Positions 35,622-57,623 of a DNA stretch of 64,000 nucleotides are shown in pieces. The DNA lies in NCBI GenBank assembly GCA_035571835.1, contig DATNBU010000042.1, positions 1 through 64,000 on the forward strand, read 5' to 3'. Made by a program: the position numbers and the translations under genes. Origin of the DNA: Candidatus Limnocylindrales bacterium (GTDB lineage Bacteria > Desulfobacterota > Binatia > UBA1149 > CAITLU01). Below the pieces are notes generated by a model. That model made no database searches, was not told the DNA's origin, and worked only from the letters and a program-made list of their open reading frames with translations. Numbering within the stretch: position 1 is the first letter of the stretch; each line of letters begins with the position of its first letter.

Positions 35622-36143
35622 TCACGACACGCCGCCTGCCGAAACCGGCGTGCTTTGTTCGTTCTGTTCGGCGCGCTGGCTGGTGCGCGCGGCTTCGGCC
35701 GCTGCCGCTTCGCGCAGGATCTTCTCGCGCATCACGCGCGCACGGAACTTCACGCGCTCGTCCGCCCTGCCCTGCCAGTCGACTTCCATCGCTTCGAGGA
35801 TTTTCGGGTGCTGGTAGAAGCACACGAACACCAGCGCGCGGACGCCCTGATAAAGAAGCGAGAGCGCGCTGCCCGCGCGCTCCCAGTGATGGATGTAGCG
35901 AGCCGCCGTCTCCTCGTCCATCGACGAGAACGTGCGGAAGCCCTCACGGAAAAGGAACGGACCGTACTCGAGAAGGCGAAGTCCGAGTGGAAAACCCAGG
36001 CGAGTGGTGGTCGGAAGATATTCGAGGAAGCCGGCCATCGAGCGCAGCACGTCGTCGTCGACGTCGATGTCGAATACACCGCCGCGCGGCCGCATGACCG
36101 CTACAGCGTGTTTGAGAATTCGCATCGAGGTGTTGCCGAGCAC
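35622..36143 (-). CDS. Small conserved protein upstream of GMC oxidoreductase
   Basis: A 173-residue protein with no recognised domain. The N-terminal half has a hydrophobic segment (LGFPLGLRLLEYGPFLFREG) and the middle is FVCFYQHPKILEAMEVDWQ. The tail is Ala/Glu/Arg-rich. The GTG start at 36143 follows GAGGA. Its stop overlaps the GMC gene by four bases (GTGA), a layout typical of gluconate-dehydrogenase small subunits next to their flavoprotein. It is probably a partner or chaperone of the GMC enzyme; this is inference. Confidence 0.65.
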   Translation of the reverse strand: MLGNTSMRILKHAVAVMRPRGGVFDIDVDDDVLRSMAGFLEYLPTTTRLGFPLGLRLLEYGPFLFREGFRTFSSMDEETAARYIHHWERAGSALSLLYQGVRALVFVCFYQHPKILEAMEVDWQGRADERVKFRARVMREKILREAAAAEAARTSQRAEQNEQSTPVSAGGVS

Positions 36144-36253
36144 GTCCGGTCCTCTTCATTTTGCGCGCCGCGGCGTCGTTGCCCCCGGCACGTCCGCTGC
36201 TATGATCCCGGCCGCGCTCCGCACGAGCCGCGATCGCACGCAGGAGGCCGTTG

Positions 36254-36865
36254 ATGTCACAGCCCGAGGCCACTCTCAAGGAACTCGTTACGCGAGCGCT
36301 GCCCGATCCGGGCGAAATTGCTTCTTTTCTGGACGGCCTGAGCCTCGAAGACAGAATCCGCGCAGTCCGCGGCATGCACGGCGGGAGCTTGCAGGGTGAG
36401 CTGTGGCGAGCCGTCGTCGGCGCGCCGCGAGTCCGCACCGACGAGATGGTCCCTCACGACTATCCGGCCCGCCGGCCGGTCATCTTCCACGGAAAGAACT
36501 CGCTGCCGGCGTTCACCGAATTCCAGAAGATCTGCTTCCGTCCCGAGGACTCGGGCGACGTCGCCTGGGGCTACAACGAAACCAAGATCCGCCCGTGGAT
36601 CGGTCCCGGCTACTACGTGCTTCACGATACGCCGGACGCGCATCTCGGCGGCGCCGCCTTCGACTACACGCAGGTGCCGTCCGCGACGCTTCCCGCCTGG
36701 CCGCCGGTGCGAGGAAACGAAGGCGGCATCTCGCGGTTCATCTACGGCAACATGCTCGATTACATGCGCCGGGTCGCGTCCGAGGTCTTCATCGGATCAG
36801 CCGTGAAAGGCGGCAAAGAGATGAACAGCTACTTCATCGTCGTGCGTGAGCTGCTGAGCGTCTGA
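36254..36865 (+). CDS. Conserved protein of unknown function
   Basis: A 203-residue soluble protein. The N-terminal 60 residues are helical (TLKELVTRALPDPGEIASFL). The rest is rich in Tyr, Pro and Trp with PWIGPGYYVLHD, ISRFIYGNMLDYMRRVASEV and NSYFIVVRELL. There is no signal peptide, membrane segment or known motif. ATG 36254 is preferred over TTG 36251 because it lies six bases after GGAGG. It is divergent from the GMC operon and convergent with the membrane protein, with a palindromic repeat at its end. Confidence 0.62.
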   Translation: MSQPEATLKELVTRALPDPGEIASFLDGLSLEDRIRAVRGMHGGSLQGELWRAVVGAPRVRTDEMVPHDYPARRPVIFHGKNSLPAFTEFQKICFRPEDSGDVAWGYNETKIRPWIGPGYYVLHDTPDAHLGGAAFDYTQVPSATLPAWPPVRGNEGGISRFIYGNMLDYMRRVASEVFIGSAVKGGKEMNSYFIVVRELLSV

Positions 36866-36966
36866 AAATAGGGACAGGTACATTTAAAAATCGTCAATGA
36901 ATTCGCGCGGCGCAGAAAGGCTGGCGTGAATTTGCTGCGAAATCTTAATTGTACCTGTCCCTATTT
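36865..36966. repeat. Long REP-like inverted repeat between convergent genes
   Basis: AAATAGGGACAGGTACATTT near 36866 is inverted at 36947-36966 (AATTGTACCTGTCCCTATTT) with a 59-base spacer, unlike the short-loop copies. The right arm supplies the TAG stop of the membrane protein gene (36961-36963), so it can act as a bidirectional transcript end. The core is the same as at 31580 and 33077. Confidence 0.86.
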
Positions 36967-37350
36967 CAGCTCGTTCGCGCTCCTCAGCAGCAGCACCATC
37001 GCGCCCACGCTCACCGCCGTCGCAATGATCATGTACGTGACGCCGAACAGCGAGTTCCTGCCGAGCTCTTCCGGCGACCGGATCGTGAACAGGTACATAT
37101 TCAGCGGCACCCAGCCCGCGTAGAGAATCCCCATCGGCAGCGCGAAGCGCCGCGCGTTCCACAAGCCGTACGCGTAGGTCGCGAGGTATGTGCCGAACAG
37201 CGGTGCGACCAGAAGATCGGGCGTGCCGCGAAGACGGCGGCCGAGAAACACGAAGCCGTGCTCGGGCTTGAGCTCGAGGACTTTCGTGAAGTTCGAGAGG
37301 GCGAGGAGCGCGAACAGGACGGCGAAGGCGCGCAGGAGATTGCGGTTCAT
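36961..37350 (-). CDS. Small four-helix membrane protein, unknown function
   Basis: A 129-residue protein with four hydrophobic helices (about 8-27, 45-65, 72-90, 100-122), for example LLRAFAVLFALLALSNFTKV and SLFGVTYMIIATAVSVGAMV. There are no conserved catalytic residues. The ATG at 37350 is 25 bases past the stop of the GrdB-like gene, on the same strand, so it is probably co-transcribed. Its stop is formed by the adjacent repeat. I do not recognise the family. Confidence 0.68.
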   Translation of the reverse strand: MNRNLLRAFAVLFALLALSNFTKVLELKPEHGFVFLGRRLRGTPDLLVAPLFGTYLATYAYGLWNARRFALPMGILYAGWVPLNMYLFTIRSPEELGRNSLFGVTYMIIATAVSVGAMVLLLRSANELK

Positions 37351-37375
37351 CGAAGCGCCTTCGCGCTTCGAGGTG

Positions 37376-38212
37376 CTACGCCGGCCGTTCCCCGTCGCGC
37401 GTCTTCATATGATAGCGCCGGAATTCTTTCGTGTAGACCCAGTCCCGCCATGGCTTTCCTTCCGGCGACTCCGCGTCGAGTCGGAACCCTAGATCGACGA
37501 TCGTGCCCGGCTCCGTCATCTGCGCGAGCGCGGCAAACGCGCTTCGTACGATCTGCCCCTGCTCATCCGGACGGTTCGGGCGCCCGATCTCATTGCCCAT
37601 AGGATAGTCGAGGAACGCGGTTCGCGGAGGTCGCACCTGTGCAGTGATGTCCATTCCGACGCTCATCGTAAGTGTCGGAACACCTGCCTCTTCGATTGCG
37701 CGCGCGACCAGACCGACGGTCTGGTGACAGACGGGTCAAGCAGGCACCAGGTAACACAGGTCGACGTTCTGCTGCTTGATCTTGTCGACGACGGGCGGAA
37801 TCAGCTCCTCTTCGACGCGACGCTGCGAGTAGATGCCGCCCATGCACGTGACGGCGTCGGGCGCGAGCTCCTTGATCGTACCGTCCTTCACCATCTCCCG
37901 AAGCACGTCGAGAGGAAACACGCAGTTCGGGTCTTTCTCGGCATCGGACGTCGGATAGCCGAAGTGCGCGATCCGCACGCGCGACGTTTCGGCGCTCGTC
38001 GGGATGATGCGGATGGACGTGTCGTCCTTGAAGTGGAACGGCGGCTGGGTGTCGAGGTGGATGCCGCCGCTCGCGACGAGCGCGACGCGGCAGTCACTCA
38101 GCGGCTTCGTCAGCGGGGTCCACGGCACCGGCGCATCGCGGTTGTCGGTCCAGCGGTAGGGCGGGAGCGGGCTGTAGAGCTCACGCGTGCGGGAGATGTA
38201 GTCGATGGGCAT
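37376..38212 (-). CDS. GrdB-family selenoprotein (glycine/sarcosine/betaine reductase selenoprotein B-like), UGA = Sec
   Basis: A 278-residue protein of the glycine/sarcosine/betaine reductase selenoprotein B family (PF07355-like). The frame from ATG 38212 meets TGA at 37736-37738 and then continues in the same frame to a TGA at 37376. Around the internal codon the product reads CYLVPA-U-PVCHQTVGLVAR, with the U-x-x-C redox motif of the family (Sec at residue 159, Cys at 162). The N-terminal part has VALVASGGIHLDTQPPFHF and CMGGIYSQRR. Other features of GrdB complexes (GrdA, GrdC) are absent from the window. It probably reduces or binds a substrate with selenol chemistry; reaction unknown. 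Confidence 0.85.
37707..37738 (-). promoter_or_regulatory. UGA selenocysteine codon with downstream SECIS-like hairpin
   Basis: On the minus strand the UGA (37738-37736) is followed by 10 bases and then an 8-bp perfect stem (ACCAGACC, 37725-37718, with 37714-37707) closed by the loop GUC. The loop starts 18 bases after the UGA. Bacterial SECIS elements lie inside the coding region, about 16-37 bases from UGA to the apical loop, with G and U in a small loop. All of these are met. The stem is in-frame coding sequence (HQTVGLV). Confidence 0.78.
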
Positions 38213-38380
38213 GGGCTTTGTCCTCGCGCACTGTAAACCAGAACCGGTGACATGCGTAGTAGTGCGGTCTATCGCAGGACGGTTGCACCGGAGTAGGCTC
38301 GTGCCACCGAGCGGTCAATTCGTGTCTGCTCCGGACAGTGGTCGGCCAAATGGAGCCGAACCCAAAGAGGGAGACAGACC

Positions 38381-38851
38381 ATGACCAGTGCCAATTCCGA
38401 GATTCTCGAGGCAGTCGACGTCGAGGTGCCCGTGCGCACCGCCTACAACCAGTGGACCCAGTTCGAGAAGTTCCCCGTCTTCATGCTTGGGGTGAAGTCG
38501 GTTGAGCAGATCGACGATTCCAATCTCCGATGGAAGATCGACATCGGAGAGGAGACCAGAGAGTGGACCGCCAGGATCACCGAGCAGACACCCGACAAGC
38601 GCATCGCATGGACGAGCACGAGCGGTTCGGCCAACGCCGGTGTCGTCACGTTTCACCGCCTCGCCGACGAACGCTGCCGGGTGACTCTTCAGCTCTCCTA
38701 CGTCCCGGAAGGCATGATCGAGAATATCGGCGATATGCTCGGGATCGTGCGCCAGAGAGTCGTCGGTGATCTGGAGCGCTTCAAGATTTTCATCGAAGAC
38801 AGCGGTGCTGCGACGGGCGGCTTTCGCGGAACGATCGAGGCGCCGAGCTGA
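38381..38851 (+). CDS. SRPBCC-family (cyclase/dehydrase-like) protein
   Basis: A 156-residue START/SRPBCC-fold protein. Its helix-grip pattern includes SEILEAVDVEVPVRTAYNQW, TQFEKFPVFMLGVKSV, IAWTSTSGSANAGVVTFHRL and VTLQLSYVPEG, with a terminal helix. Such proteins bind hydrophobic ligands or serve as aromatase/cyclase or ubiquinone-binding factors. It reads opposite to the nitrile hydratase and GrdB-like genes and sits between them. GGGAG precedes ATG 38381. The ligand is unknown. Confidence 0.85.
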   Translation: MTSANSEILEAVDVEVPVRTAYNQWTQFEKFPVFMLGVKSVEQIDDSNLRWKIDIGEETREWTARITEQTPDKRIAWTSTSGSANAGVVTFHRLADERCRVTLQLSYVPEGMIENIGDMLGIVRQRVVGDLERFKIFIEDSGAATGGFRGTIEAPS

Positions 38852-38907
38852 GACGCGCATCGGCGGGGCGTCAGATCGGTGCTGATTGAGCCGCGTTCGT
38901 CGGTTCG

Positions 38908-39504
38908 CTATCCGCGCTCTACGAGGGCGACGCCAATCATTGCTTCACGCGTAACGAGCTCGGCCAGTCTCTCCTCGCTCCACCCGTCGGTGCCCGGCGG
39001 CCGAAGCGGAAGCACCATATAGCGGGTCTCCGCGGTGGTGTCCCAGACACGGATCGCGACGCTCTCGGGAAGATCGAGGCCCATCTCGCGGAGCAGCGGC
39101 CGCGGCTCGCGCACGACGCGCGCACGATACTCGGGGCTTTTGTACCAGTCGGGAGGAAGCCCGAGCACCGGCCACGCGGTGCACGAGCATTGCGTGCAGA
39201 CGATGACGTTGTGGAGTTTCGGCGTGTCCTCGAGGACGACGATGTACTCGCCTTCGGGACCTGAATAGCCGAGCTCGGCGCACGCCGCGGTGCCGTCGGT
39301 GAGCAGGCGCTTTCGGTACTCGGCGTCGACCCACGCCTTCGCAACGACGCGCGCGCCGTTTCGCGGGCTCCACATCTCCGTAGCGGTCATTGTAACCGCA
39401 TCGAGGAAGCCATTGGGGATGAGTTTCTTTTCGGTAAGCGCTTCGACGACCGCTTGGGCTCTTGCGGCCGGGGGCGCCGGTTCCTGGCGGTTGCGATTGC
39501 TCAT
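38908..39504 (-). CDS. nthA: Nitrile hydratase alpha subunit
   Basis: A 198-residue alpha subunit of nitrile hydratase, which converts nitriles to amides in the cytoplasm as an alpha-beta complex. The metal-binding loop VCTQCSC (residues 102-108) provides three cysteines, two of them oxidised in the mature enzyme, and the Ser. The Thr after the first Cys is the cobalt-type residue (iron enzymes have Ser), but Gln replaces the usual Leu, and TAWPVLGLPPDWYKS follows as usual. ATG 39504 overlaps the stop of the beta gene. Thiocyanate hydrolase is related but less likely. No activator gene is adjacent. Confidence 0.93.
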   Translation of the reverse strand: MSNRNRQEPAPPAARAQAVVEALTEKKLIPNGFLDAVTMTATEMWSPRNGARVVAKAWVDAEYRKRLLTDGTAACAELGYSGPEGEYIVVLEDTPKLHNVIVCTQCSCTAWPVLGLPPDWYKSPEYRARVVREPRPLLREMGLDLPESVAIRVWDTTAETRYMVLPLRPPGTDGWSEERLAELVTREAMIGVALVERG

Positions 39505-40130
39505 GCACGCTCCAGATACGCGTCCCACAGGTCGACGACGACGGTTTGATTGCTGCCGCCCGCGTCGGTCCAGAGCTCGTGCGCCGCGAATTCGACGTGG
39601 TACGTGTGCTCTTTTCGGCGCGGCTGCCCATGAGCGGAGGCATCCGGAAACGAGAATGCCGGTGCGACGTGGACGACGGTGCCGCGCTTTCCGCGAACGT
39701 AGCGCGGTGCGCGGGTGTGACCGGCCGGATGCACGTTACGGACGACGACGTCGTCGCCGACGTGAAAGCGGGCCTGCGACTGCGCATCGAGCTCTGCAGT
39801 CGGCTTGTCGGCTACGGGGCGTGACAGAGGAAATGGCTTTCCTGCGCGCGCTTCGAGGTCGGCGTGCGTGAGCACGCCTTTCTCGACGAGGATCGTCGCG
39901 ACCGCCGTCAGCACGCGCTCATAGTAGGTTGCCTGGAGGTAGTGCGCGGGATCCATGCGCTCGACCGCGTGGCGGTACTCGTCAGGGTTGTACGCGCGCA
40001 GCTCGGCGATGCTGAAGATGTTCAGCGCGAAGGCCAGAGCTTCCCAGGGTTCGTGGAAGACGGGCTCGTCGCGTTCGATTTCTACCGGGCCGAAGCCGTT
40101 CATTCCGCCGAGGTCGTGGATTCCGTCCAT
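39501..40130 (-). CDS. nthB: Nitrile hydratase beta subunit
   Basis: A 209-residue beta subunit. It opens MDGIHDLGGMNGFGPVEIER, the family start, and ends with the barrel that packs on the alpha subunit: FHVGDDVVVRNVHPAGHTRA, GKRGTVVHV, KEHTYHVEFAAHELW. The start at ATG 40130 is chosen over an upstream Met because the homologous N-terminus begins MDGIHD. Order beta then alpha is typical of cobalt enzymes. Its stop overlaps the alpha start (ATGA), so the subunits are made in equal amounts. Confidence 0.94.
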   Translation of the reverse strand: MDGIHDLGGMNGFGPVEIERDEPVFHEPWEALAFALNIFSIAELRAYNPDEYRHAVERMDPAHYLQATYYERVLTAVATILVEKGVLTHADLEARAGKPFPLSRPVADKPTAELDAQSQARFHVGDDVVVRNVHPAGHTRAPRYVRGKRGTVVHVAPAFSFPDASAHGQPRRKEHTYHVEFAAHELWTDAGGSNQTVVVDLWDAYLERA

Positions 40131-40261
40131 GTGAGGTCTCTTCGGTTGGGTCCCGTCGTCTTTCGCTGATGCTTCTTCTGCATACACGTTCTGTTTTCAG
40201 CCGTCGATTCATTCCCGACGTCTCCCTTGGCTGACCCCTGCCCCCTCGCTACAACCCGCCC

Positions 40262-42567: not shown

Positions 42568-43023
42568 TCAAACTGTCGGCGTCAGCACGACCACCGGAAT
42601 CTCGCGCGACGTGATGCTTTCGTAAACCGCGTACTGCGGATTCATCCGGACCGCCGCGCTCCACAGTCGCGCGCGCTCTTCGCCGGCGGCAGTCGATGCC
42701 GTGGCCTCGAGCTTGCGCGGCCCGACCTCGATCGTTGCGCGCGGATCCGCCTTCAGATTCAGATACCAGACCGGATGCTTCTCATTGCCTCCGTTGGAAG
42801 CAATCAGCACGAAGCGTCCGCGATCTTCGAAGTACGTAAGCGGGCACGTGCGCATCTCACCGGTCTTGCGACCCTTCGAAGTCAGCAGAAGATTCTTGAC
42901 GGGGCCGGTCTTGTGTCCGATGCGCCCACCGGAAAGCCGGTAAAGCCGCGTATGGACCTTGCCCATGTTCTTGTAGAAGTTGCTCTCGCCAACGTACTTC
43001 CAGAATTTCTGAGCCCCAGTCAT
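42568..43023 (-). CDS. Deazaflavin (F420)-dependent nitroreductase family protein
   Basis: A 151-residue split-barrel protein of the DDN family, which uses the deazaflavin cofactor F420. Family marks are LYRLSGGRIGHKTGPVKNLL, LTSKGRKTGEMRTCPLTYFE, NGGNEKHPVWYLNLKADPRA and EVGPRKLEA. I chose ATG 43023, five bases after GGAGG, rather than the earlier Met. With two luciferase-like oxidoreductases in the window it suggests F420 use. The substrate is unknown. It lies between the thiolase and an acyl-CoA dehydrogenase. Confidence 0.87.
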   Translation of the reverse strand: MTGAQKFWKYVGESNFYKNMGKVHTRLYRLSGGRIGHKTGPVKNLLLTSKGRKTGEMRTCPLTYFEDRGRFVLIASNGGNEKHPVWYLNLKADPRATIEVGPRKLEATASTAAGEERARLWSAAVRMNPQYAVYESITSREIPVVVLTPTV

Positions 43024-43060
43024 GAAAGCCTCCGCCAAATCCAACTGACGCCGTTTTGGA

Positions 43061-52062: not shown

Positions 52063-53001
52063 TCAGAGGCGACGCGCCGCAGGTGCCACTTCTTCCGAGA
52101 AGGCCTGCAGCTCATCGAGAAGAACCGGACCGAAGCTGAGGAAAATGAAATGCGTAACTCCGACCGCAAGGTAGCTGCGTACCTGTTCGAGACACTCGTC
52201 CTTGCTTCCGATCATGATGCGCTCGCGTGCCTGTTCGGGTGAAAGCCCGTAGGCGCGTGCGAGCGTGCTGCACGCCGAGGTCTGACGGTCGGAGTTGGTG
52301 CTGTAGCAGAGCGGCAGCGCAACGCTCTTCTCGATGGCGTCCGTATCGCGCCCCAGCCTGTCGCCGTGATCTCGGATCACGTCGATGAGCTCCTTCATCT
52401 GCGCCGGCGTTCCGAAGGAATTCCACATGTCCGCATGCTCGGCGACGATGCGGAGCAGCACTTTGCGGCCGGCGCCGCCGATCATCAGCGGCGGACCGCC
52501 GGCCTGTACCGGACCCGGCTCCGCGTGCGCGTCGCGAACCCGATAATGATTGCCGTCGAGCGAAATCCTCTCGCCGCGCAGCATGCCTTTGAGAATCCTG
52601 CACGATTCGTCGAGCGCGCCGAGCCGCCGCGGGATCGGCGGATATTCGATACCGAAACTGTCGTGCTCGAGCTCGTACCAGCCCGCTCCCAGGCCGAGGT
52701 TCAAACGGCCTGCGGAGATGTGATCGACCGAAACCGCCATCTTCGCGAGCACGCACGGGTTACGGTACGTGTTGCCGGTGACGAGATGCCCGATGCGCGC
52801 GAGCCGCGTCGCGTGTGCGAGCGCAGCGAGCAACGTCCAGCCTTCATGACAGGGCCCGTCCGGATCGGAGAAAATCGGATAAAAGTGATCGAAGAGCCAC
52901 AGCGAATCGTAGCCCCACGAATCCGCAGCGACCCAGGTGTCGTGGAGCTCTCTCCACGTCATGTTCTGTTGAGCAGTCTGGATGCCGAAGCGGACTACCA
53001 C
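52063..53001 (-). CDS. Luciferase-like monooxygenase, F420-dependent type
   Basis: A 312-residue TIM-barrel oxidoreductase of the luciferase-like family. It opens VVRFGIQTAQQNMTWRELHD, has WGYDSLWLFDHFYPIFSDPD, GNTYRNPCVLAKMAVSVDHI, LGLGAGWYELEHDSFGIEYP, and GGPPLMIGGAGRKVLLRIVA, the usual core of LLM F420-dependent enzymes; FMN use is the alternative. The GTG start at 53001 overlaps the DUF5715 gene by seven bases. The substrate is unknown. Confidence 0.88.
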   Translation of the reverse strand: MVVRFGIQTAQQNMTWRELHDTWVAADSWGYDSLWLFDHFYPIFSDPDGPCHEGWTLLAALAHATRLARIGHLVTGNTYRNPCVLAKMAVSVDHISAGRLNLGLGAGWYELEHDSFGIEYPPIPRRLGALDESCRILKGMLRGERISLDGNHYRVRDAHAEPGPVQAGGPPLMIGGAGRKVLLRIVAEHADMWNSFGTPAQMKELIDVIRDHGDRLGRDTDAIEKSVALPLCYSTNSDRQTSACSTLARAYGLSPEQARERIMIGSKDECLEQVRSYLAVGVTHFIFLSFGPVLLDELQAFSEEVAPAARRL

Positions 53002-56781: not shown

Positions 56782-57623
56782 CAGCCGACCTCTTTCATCA
56801 GGGCTTCGTAGCGGTCGAGCATCGGCAGCAGCTTCTCGCGCGGCGCCGACGGCAGGCTGAACACCGCGCGCGCGACGCCGCTGTCGCGATAGCTCACGAG
56901 CTGGTCCTTGTCCGGCGCAACGCCGAAGACCGAAACTTCGATCGACTTCGGATCGCGGCCGGCAGCCGTCGCGGCCTCGGCAAGCGTGCCCATCTCGCGC
57001 TCGACGTTGGTGAACACGCCGATCGGAATCCATCCGTCGCAGTAGCGCACGACGCGCTCGATGCCCTTCGCCCCGTGCGCACCGAGAACGATCGGCGGAT
57101 GCGGCTTCTGCACCGGTTTCGGGTTCGAGAAGATCGGATCGAAATCAACGAACTCGCCGTGGTACTCGGCCTTCTCGTTCGTCCAGATCGCTTTCATCGC
57201 TTCGATGCGCTCGCGCAGCACCTTCCATCGCTTCTTCGAATCGGTGCCGTGGTTGGCCATCTCTTCCACGTTCCAGCCGCCGCCGATGCCGAGGATTGCG
57301 CGCCCGTTCGAAATGCGATCGAGCGTGGCCACTTCCTTCGCCAGCACGATCGGATCGCGCTGAATGACGAGCGCGATGCCGGTGGCGAGTCGCAGCTTCT
57401 TCGTTACGGCCGCGCACGCGCCGAGCGTCACGAACGGGTCGAACGTATCGTAGTAGTGCTGCGGCAGATCGCCGCCGCCGGGAAACGGCGTGGCCCGCGA
57501 TGCGGGAATGTGGGTGTGCTCGGGAAACCACAGCGATTCGAAGCCCCGCGCCTCGGCTTCGACCGCAAGCTCCGGAGCCGGCATGGCGTATTCGGTGACG
57601 AAGATGTTCAGGCCGTATTTCAT
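56781..57623 (-). CDS. Luciferase-like monooxygenase, F420-dependent type
   Basis: A 280-residue TIM-barrel LLM protein. It opens MKYGLNIFVTEYAMPAPELA and has GFESLWFPEHTHIPASRATP, ATGIALVIQRDPIVLAKEVA, LDRISNGRAILGIGGGWNVE and a long KPHPPIVLGAHGAKG strand. The GGGW-N-x-EE pattern is that of F420-dependent LLM oxidoreductases. It is the first gene of a two-gene unit with the acyl-CoA dehydrogenase (one-base overlap). The reaction is unknown. Confidence 0.89.
   Translation of the reverse strand: MKYGLNIFVTEYAMPAPELAVEAEARGFESLWFPEHTHIPASRATPFPGGGDLPQHYYDTFDPFVTLGACAAVTKKLRLATGIALVIQRDPIVLAKEVATLDRISNGRAILGIGGGWNVEEMANHGTDSKKRWKVLRERIEAMKAIWTNEKAEYHGEFVDFDPIFSNPKPVQKPHPPIVLGAHGAKGIERVVRYCDGWIPIGVFTNVEREMGTLAEAATAAGRDPKSIEVSVFGVAPDKDQLVSYRDSGVARAVFSLPSAPREKLLPMLDRYEALMKEVG

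Follow-up and report, generated by a model that had tools for sequence, protein, structure and literature searches.

The closest described systems are selenoproteins of the PrdB and GrdB kind. In glycine reductase, the selenocysteine (Sec, U) of protein B is borne by GrdB (PMC13188914), and titles cited in two papers state that a pyruvoyl group is made by PrdA and GrdE (PMC1088965; PMC10838667). D-proline reductase appears in two reviews as TIGR04483, with a U-x-x-C motif (PMC9312934; PMC13188914). Genes labelled PrdB have also been counted at sea: 42 selenoprotein genes with U-x-x-C were reported from the Sargasso Sea in 2005, where they formed the third most abundant known family (PMC1088965), and 235 PrdB selenoprotein genes together with 110 Cys homologues were reported from GOS in 2008 (PMC2398784). 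By both counts, such proteins rank with the most abundant marine selenoprotein families. A GrdB/GrdE-like pair, farB/farE, has been proposed to act in fluoroacetate dehalogenation, through attack of the selenol on the C-F bond (PMC10838667). As to what a stand-alone PrdB-like protein does, no treatment was found in the open-licence literature, as covered by titles and the beginnings of abstracts. What is known is a family of PrdB-labelled selenoproteins with U-x-x-C, of which the gene described here is likely a further member, with a function that is little described.

This gene lies on the minus strand of the window, i.e., the whole 64,000-nucleotide stretch of DNA that was analysed, at positions 37376..38212, with its ATG at 38212 and a TAG stop at 37378-37376. 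It comprises 278 codons, a single one of which, codon 159 (37736..37738, minus strand), is an in-frame UGA read here as Sec. Translation with TGA read through gives 158 residues, Sec, and 119 further residues, the UGA falling at the U of U-P-V-C in the context LVPA-U-PVCHQTVG. The first-pass annotation had given these coordinates and counts and had placed the UGA at the U of a U-x-x-C motif (VPA-U-PVCHQTVG); all of this is borne out, to which the strand, absent from that annotation, can be added. It had also described a gene split in two by ordinary calling with a loss of 24 residues, and standard ORF calling reproduces this: it yields a 158-aa ORF (37736-38212) and a 96-aa ORF (37376-37666), between which 24 positions fall, Sec included. 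The locus is thereby a clean case of a Sec codon breaking standard ORF calling. UGA is an ordinary stop too in this region of the genome: among the other window ORFs, 13 were checked and 10 of them terminate in TGA. The selenoprotein gene itself ends with TAG. A scan for promoters and terminators gave a result near chance.

UGA-159 almost certainly encodes Sec, its decoding being aided by a downstream hairpin and by the organism's own SelA, SelB, SelC and SelD. Four lines of evidence agree on this reading: the machinery, the conservation of the column, the constraint after the UGA, and the hairpin. As regards the machinery, the genome search proposed earlier finds all of selA, selB, selC (tRNA-Sec) and selD, the best match of each lying over its family cut-off; tRNA-Sec and SelB, whose absence had been named as an argument against Sec, are thus both there. 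The tRNA-Sec scores 68.5 bits and has the anticodon UCA. On contig C19, selA (549.7 bits), selB (349 bits) and the beginning of selD (its first 70 positions) follow one another, and contig C6 opens with what remains of a selD (280.8 bits), so that selD is split over two contig ends. The start of selD has Cys here at a position that is presumably Sec in some SelD proteins. A second UGA gene emerged when the same genome was searched for the CMD family (PF02627): five places matched, one of them with an internal TGA. This gene (L088:1372-2505, on contig C26) encodes an AhpD/CMD-like protein with a C-V-Y-U motif, and the bases after its UGA fold into a hairpin of -21.5 kcal/mol, a value obtained without shuffle control. 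AhpD-like selenoproteins with CXXU are listed for the Sargasso Sea (PMC1088965). A search for the UGSC selenoprotein family, run without a positive control, found none in the genome.

Of the 395 phylum genomes, 99 have a match to the protein and 355 have selA (the genome studied here is included in all phylum tallies); selA being near universal, the co-occurrence of the two has little power as a test at this scale. By our own reading of the tables, selA accompanies the protein in 93 of the 99 genomes, and six show none at E <= 1e-60, namely G005, G043, G200, G272, G303, and G355 (79, 94, 81, 99, 97, and 82% complete, respectively). In the three of these that are at least 94% complete, G043, G272, and G303, the copies (L046, L111, and L097, respectively) still carry TGA. 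Within the organism's own class, selA is present in 12 of 16 genomes, its own included; the protein occurs in 11 of these 12 and was found in none of the four genomes without selA (G092, G198, G221, G264); calculated by hand and ignoring kinship, the chance of such an association is about 0.003.

The residue-level comparison was made on the best 90 places of the phylum table, i.e., the window gene and 89 related places, with weaker rows left out and with several copies contributed by some genomes. At the Sec column, the best 89 related places have TGA in 88 cases and GGA in one, in addition to the TGA of the window gene. Two named alphaproteobacterial homologues, from Haematobacter (L062, TGC) and Roseomonas (L153), have Cys at this position, and the annotated prdB gene taken as a control (L061) has TGA. 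Residue 159, at which the first-pass annotation had advised comparing homologues, is thus a Sec codon nearly throughout and Cys in these two; the refuting outcome that it had named here, homologues lacking both at this column, did not arise, GGA being confined to one copy. In a tree of the 90 places with L061 and L062, the Haematobacter Cys form groups with eight Sec forms (support 100/100). The GGA copy (L051, G359:C12:67363-68031) has Gly in an open frame, through loss of Sec or a sequence error; Sec may be lost in this genome, as GGA stands at the column although selA is present. The copy L024 has a TAG near its end. A scan of genome contigs yielded a single relative (L063, NIOZ-UU50), which is the same place as L026 (G323 contig C98).

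Conservation extends over both sides of the UGA. Amino acid identities before and after it are 66 and 70%, 62 and 62%, and 62 and 63% for the three nearest relatives, and 55 and 45% for the fourth (L027), and dN is well under dS in both halves against all four. For instance, dN against L024 is 0.28 before the UGA and 0.24 after it, with dS at about 1.6 in both halves; L025 and L026 give similar values. Against L027, conservation is somewhat weaker after the UGA, yet dN is 0.50 there for a dS of 2.0.

In bacterial selenoprotein genes, a hairpin with a G in its apical loop typically follows right after the UGA. Here, a SECIS-type hairpin (37707..37725, minus strand) with an 8-pair stem and the apical loop GUC is predicted 10 nt after the UGA. 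In an alignment of 28 sequences, window gene included, the paired fraction of cells is 96.4%, as against 6.7-48.2% in slid controls in which partners were shifted by 1-3 columns, and three of the pairs show 14 two-sided changes in all. Four of five hairpin measures exceed nearly all shuffles of these 28 sequences; the fifth, further pair types, is not above them (5 versus a shuffle mean of 5.3). With all 89 TGA sequences, window gene included, pairing amounts to 94.8%, the best of 500 shuffles reaching 85.4%, and the apical loop starts with G in 89 of 89. The single-sequence fold is only mildly stable (z -2.0 versus shuffles), and an Rfam search for SECIS elements over 36000-40000 (E <= 1) returned nothing relevant. 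Because the stem overlaps coding letters, part of its constraint could be protein-derived; in favour of pairing at the RNA level are columns 24/40 and 28/36, where both sides change.

These data bear on two other accounts of the UGA. It could be a real stop, in a pseudogene or through a sequencing error, as the splitting of the gene by ordinary calling and the usual role of UGA as a stop in this region might suggest; TGA at 88 of 89 related places, the similar constraint after the UGA and the covarying hairpin refute this account as far as sequence can, and its likelihood is negligible. Scarcely less remote is the idea that the UGA specifies an amino acid other than Sec, by stop reassignment or leaky read-through: the open frame would fit, and nothing further does, given that TGA ends most of the other window ORFs checked, that Cys and not Trp stands at the column in the two alphaproteobacterial homologues, and that tRNA-Sec and SelB are encoded in the genome.

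With the UGA read as Sec, the gene very probably makes a selenoprotein of the PrdB/GrdB superfamily. The Pfam family PF07355 (GRDB) is matched with 43.9 bits for a gathering score of 22, residues 29-153 aligning with positions 214-342 of the 347-position profile. Among NCBIfam models, the best match is PrdB (TIGR04483), with 173 bits over residues 30-243, and its cut-off of 300 is not reached; GrdB-type models give 41.7-53.9 bits, all under their own cut-offs, with TIGR01917 and TIGR01918 at 41.7 of 602.2 and 48.7 of 65.45 bits, respectively. The earlier label of a GrdB-family gene stands insofar as PF07355 is passed; on the other hand, the protein is nearer to PrdB than to GrdB-type models and passes no named cut-off. 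Judged by these scores, it is a member of the GRDB superfamily and neither PrdB nor GrdB as defined.

The partner family gives a further indication. The PF09338 (PrdA/GrdE) model recognises three proteins other than PrdB in the annotated prd cluster, namely PrdA, PrdD and a 'component B subunit'. It matched nothing in the organism's own genome, which is 98.4% complete, nor anything in 14 control genomes, and because of the latter result the phylum run served as its positive control: matches were obtained in 17 of the 395 genomes, all 17 being among the 99 with the protein. In the other 82 of these 99, the genome studied here included, the protein occurs without any PF09338 partner found, and no proline racemase or other prd gene was seen among the window neighbours scanned, ten in one scan and seven in another. 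The failure to find PF09338 in this genome and in the 82 indicates that the protein is not a classical subunit of D-proline or glycine reductase. It could still be a true PrdB or GrdB subunit with its partner encoded elsewhere in the genome, since PrdB is its best NCBIfam match, at 173 bits, and U-x-x-C is common to it and the annotated PrdB. This is very improbable: the PrdB cut-off is missed, the same PF09338 search that recognises PrdA and is positive in 17 genomes leaves a nearly complete genome without a match, and none of the window neighbours scanned is a prd gene. Where no member of the partner family is found, as for the 82 genomes, the label 'proline reductase' is hardly tenable. One half of the earlier statement that such proteins are little described outside reductase operons is to be given up: their occurrence there is widespread, as in the 82 of 99 genomes, and it is for their function that the statement holds. 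PrdB-labelled U-x-x-C selenoproteins have been counted at sea since 2005. Among mobile elements, relatives in viral contigs were looked for with none confirmed, and no DNA-level relatives were found on plasmids. A distant relative (H21, 26% identity) is encoded at 714-1397 of MT838886.1, a 4.8-kb unannotated faecal 'Bacteriophage sp.' sequence that is perhaps host DNA.

The surroundings of the gene can be read as catabolic, without a fixed partner. A gene for a 129-aa hydrophobic protein assigned to no family (36961..37350, minus strand) lies 25 nt downstream; homologues occupy the same place in L065 and L066, and the protein is a possible operon partner. Beyond it come a 204-aa protein on the opposite strand and, further on, a GMC oxidoreductase. 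The other side of the window gene has a polyketide-cyclase-like protein, the alpha and beta subunits of nitrile hydratase, a glutathione S-transferase (GST), a thiolase, and an F420H2-dependent quinone reductase. The overlapping nitrile hydratase beta and alpha genes (38908-40187, minus strand) are not among the ORFs shared with at least two of the 20 neighbourhoods compared. The F420H2-dependent quinone reductase and weak matches to a luciferase-like query are located at window positions 42568-43044, 52237-52842, and 56901-57440, and this query matches 21 places in the whole genome. The window also contains GGGACAGGTACATTT in six copies on both strands (31586, 33083, 36871, 36947, 41198, and 41272), found with at most one mismatch in a search that allowed two, for 0.01 copies expected by chance; it looks like a dispersed repeat family.

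The catabolic genes around the selenoprotein gene comprise thiolase, acyl-CoA dehydrogenase, GMC oxidoreductase and GST; thiolase, GMC oxidoreductase and several others recur around the copies in L064-L066. A luciferase-like (PF00296) gene ends at most 60 bases upstream, on the same strand, in L064, L065, and L069; at the corresponding site, L066 carries a gene closely related to that of L065. Those of L064 and L065 pass the threshold for TIGR03564, an F420-dependent family; the L069 gene differs in kind and reaches none of the cut-offs listed. There is no such gene beside the window copy, and the best match in the organism's own genome is weak (39% identity over about half the length). A MAPEG gene is found downstream of the copy in L067 and L070. 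Other clades have other neighbours, as seen for selected neighbours scanned with Pfam, and no partner conserved over the 20 neighbourhoods was seen among the matches listed. Because neighbours differ between clades, no pathway is assigned.

The predicted model, built with 28 rows, is an alpha/beta fold (pLDDT 90.1, pTM 0.90) in which residue 159 sits between a strand (152-156) and a helix (160-175). A Foldseek search gave a phage neck-tail protein as its sole row under E 0.001, which was discarded in view of TM-scores of 0.31 and 0.26. In a second fold comparison, microcystinase C came first among the rows listed (Z 9.4, 3.6 A, 153 residues); the next rows, none above Z 8.2, are of widespread Rossmann-like and periplasmic-binding types. 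The rows listed are common alpha/beta matches on which no family claim is based, and no thioredoxin-like protein is among them. At the sequence level, the single-protein query found no solved structure. A 30-row profile gave seven rows, the best of which, a designed repeat protein (E 6.4e-6), covered 30 residues only and was rejected, the other six having E values of 0.08-1.2.

Over the 90 places, U-x-x-C is found in 82 (window gene included), U-x-x-D in seven, and G-x-x-C in one. The U-x-x-D copies (L037, L038, L039, L043, L045, L089, and L090), which read U-P-L-D-H-Q-S, are split off together by a branch with 100/99 support and have a U-x-x-C row beside them, so that most simply the second Cys would have been lost once while Sec stayed. 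The retention of Sec where the resolving Cys is gone argues against an Se-S pair within the motif as the general mechanism and speaks for Sec as the reacting group, short of proof. A thiol/selenol oxidoreductase of the U-x-x-C type, which would reduce disulfides, peroxides or oxidised small molecules via such an Se-S pair and would have no carbon substrate, would agree with the U-x-x-C of the window gene and of 81 of the 89 related places. The GST genes near the copies in the window, L064, and L067, along with the MAPEG genes by L067 and L070, would be in keeping with a glutathione setting as well. The seven U-x-x-D places count against this function, the Se-S pair being dispensable in one clade, and we regard it as possible at rather unfavourable odds. 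The reading we favour, with a probability of roughly 0.45, is a reductase with a selenol nucleophile that works without a PrdA/GrdE-type partner. The selenol would attack a small substrate at an activated carbon or heteroatom, leading to its reductive cleavage or reduction, and a thiol, either that of the neighbouring Cys or an external one, would resolve the resulting Se-S or Se-substrate adduct; amid catabolic genes, the protein would act in a degradative pathway.

More broadly, and quite tentatively, stand-alone PrdB-like selenoproteins may be a separate and widespread kind of Se-dependent reductase that has no pyruvoyl partner and takes catabolic roles outside Stickland fermentation. If so, Sec alone would carry the chemistry in the U-x-x-D clade. 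Knowledge of the substrate of such a protein would show why these bacteria pay for selenium.

Among named systems, PrdB (TIGR04483) shares U-x-x-C with the window protein at the same column. The annotated PrdB is 33% identical to it, and compared with the PrdB model the window protein has about 11 extra residues before the covered part and 29 after it. PrdB further differs in its partner, none of the PF09338 type having been found in the genome of the window gene. Of GrdB, the window protein matches the second half only of the 431-position models (TIGR01917/TIGR01918). The Haematobacter and Roseomonas homologues, annotated 'glycine/sarcosine/betaine reductase selenoprotein B family protein', are of similar length and about 34% identical, with Cys for Sec, and have no reductase genes among the neighbours listed in their incomplete gene tables. 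In farB/farE, a GrdB-like selenoprotein is given a proposed role other than amino acid reduction, as is presumed for the window protein; farB differs in having a GrdE-like partner and in acting in anaerobic dehalorespiration (PMC10838667). Finally, the 'Proline reductase PrdB' of the Sargasso Sea and GOS has U-x-x-C (and PF07355 in GOS) and occurs in Cys forms, as does the family of the window gene (PMC1088965; PMC2398784), which likely belongs to the same subgroup as these marine selenoproteins.
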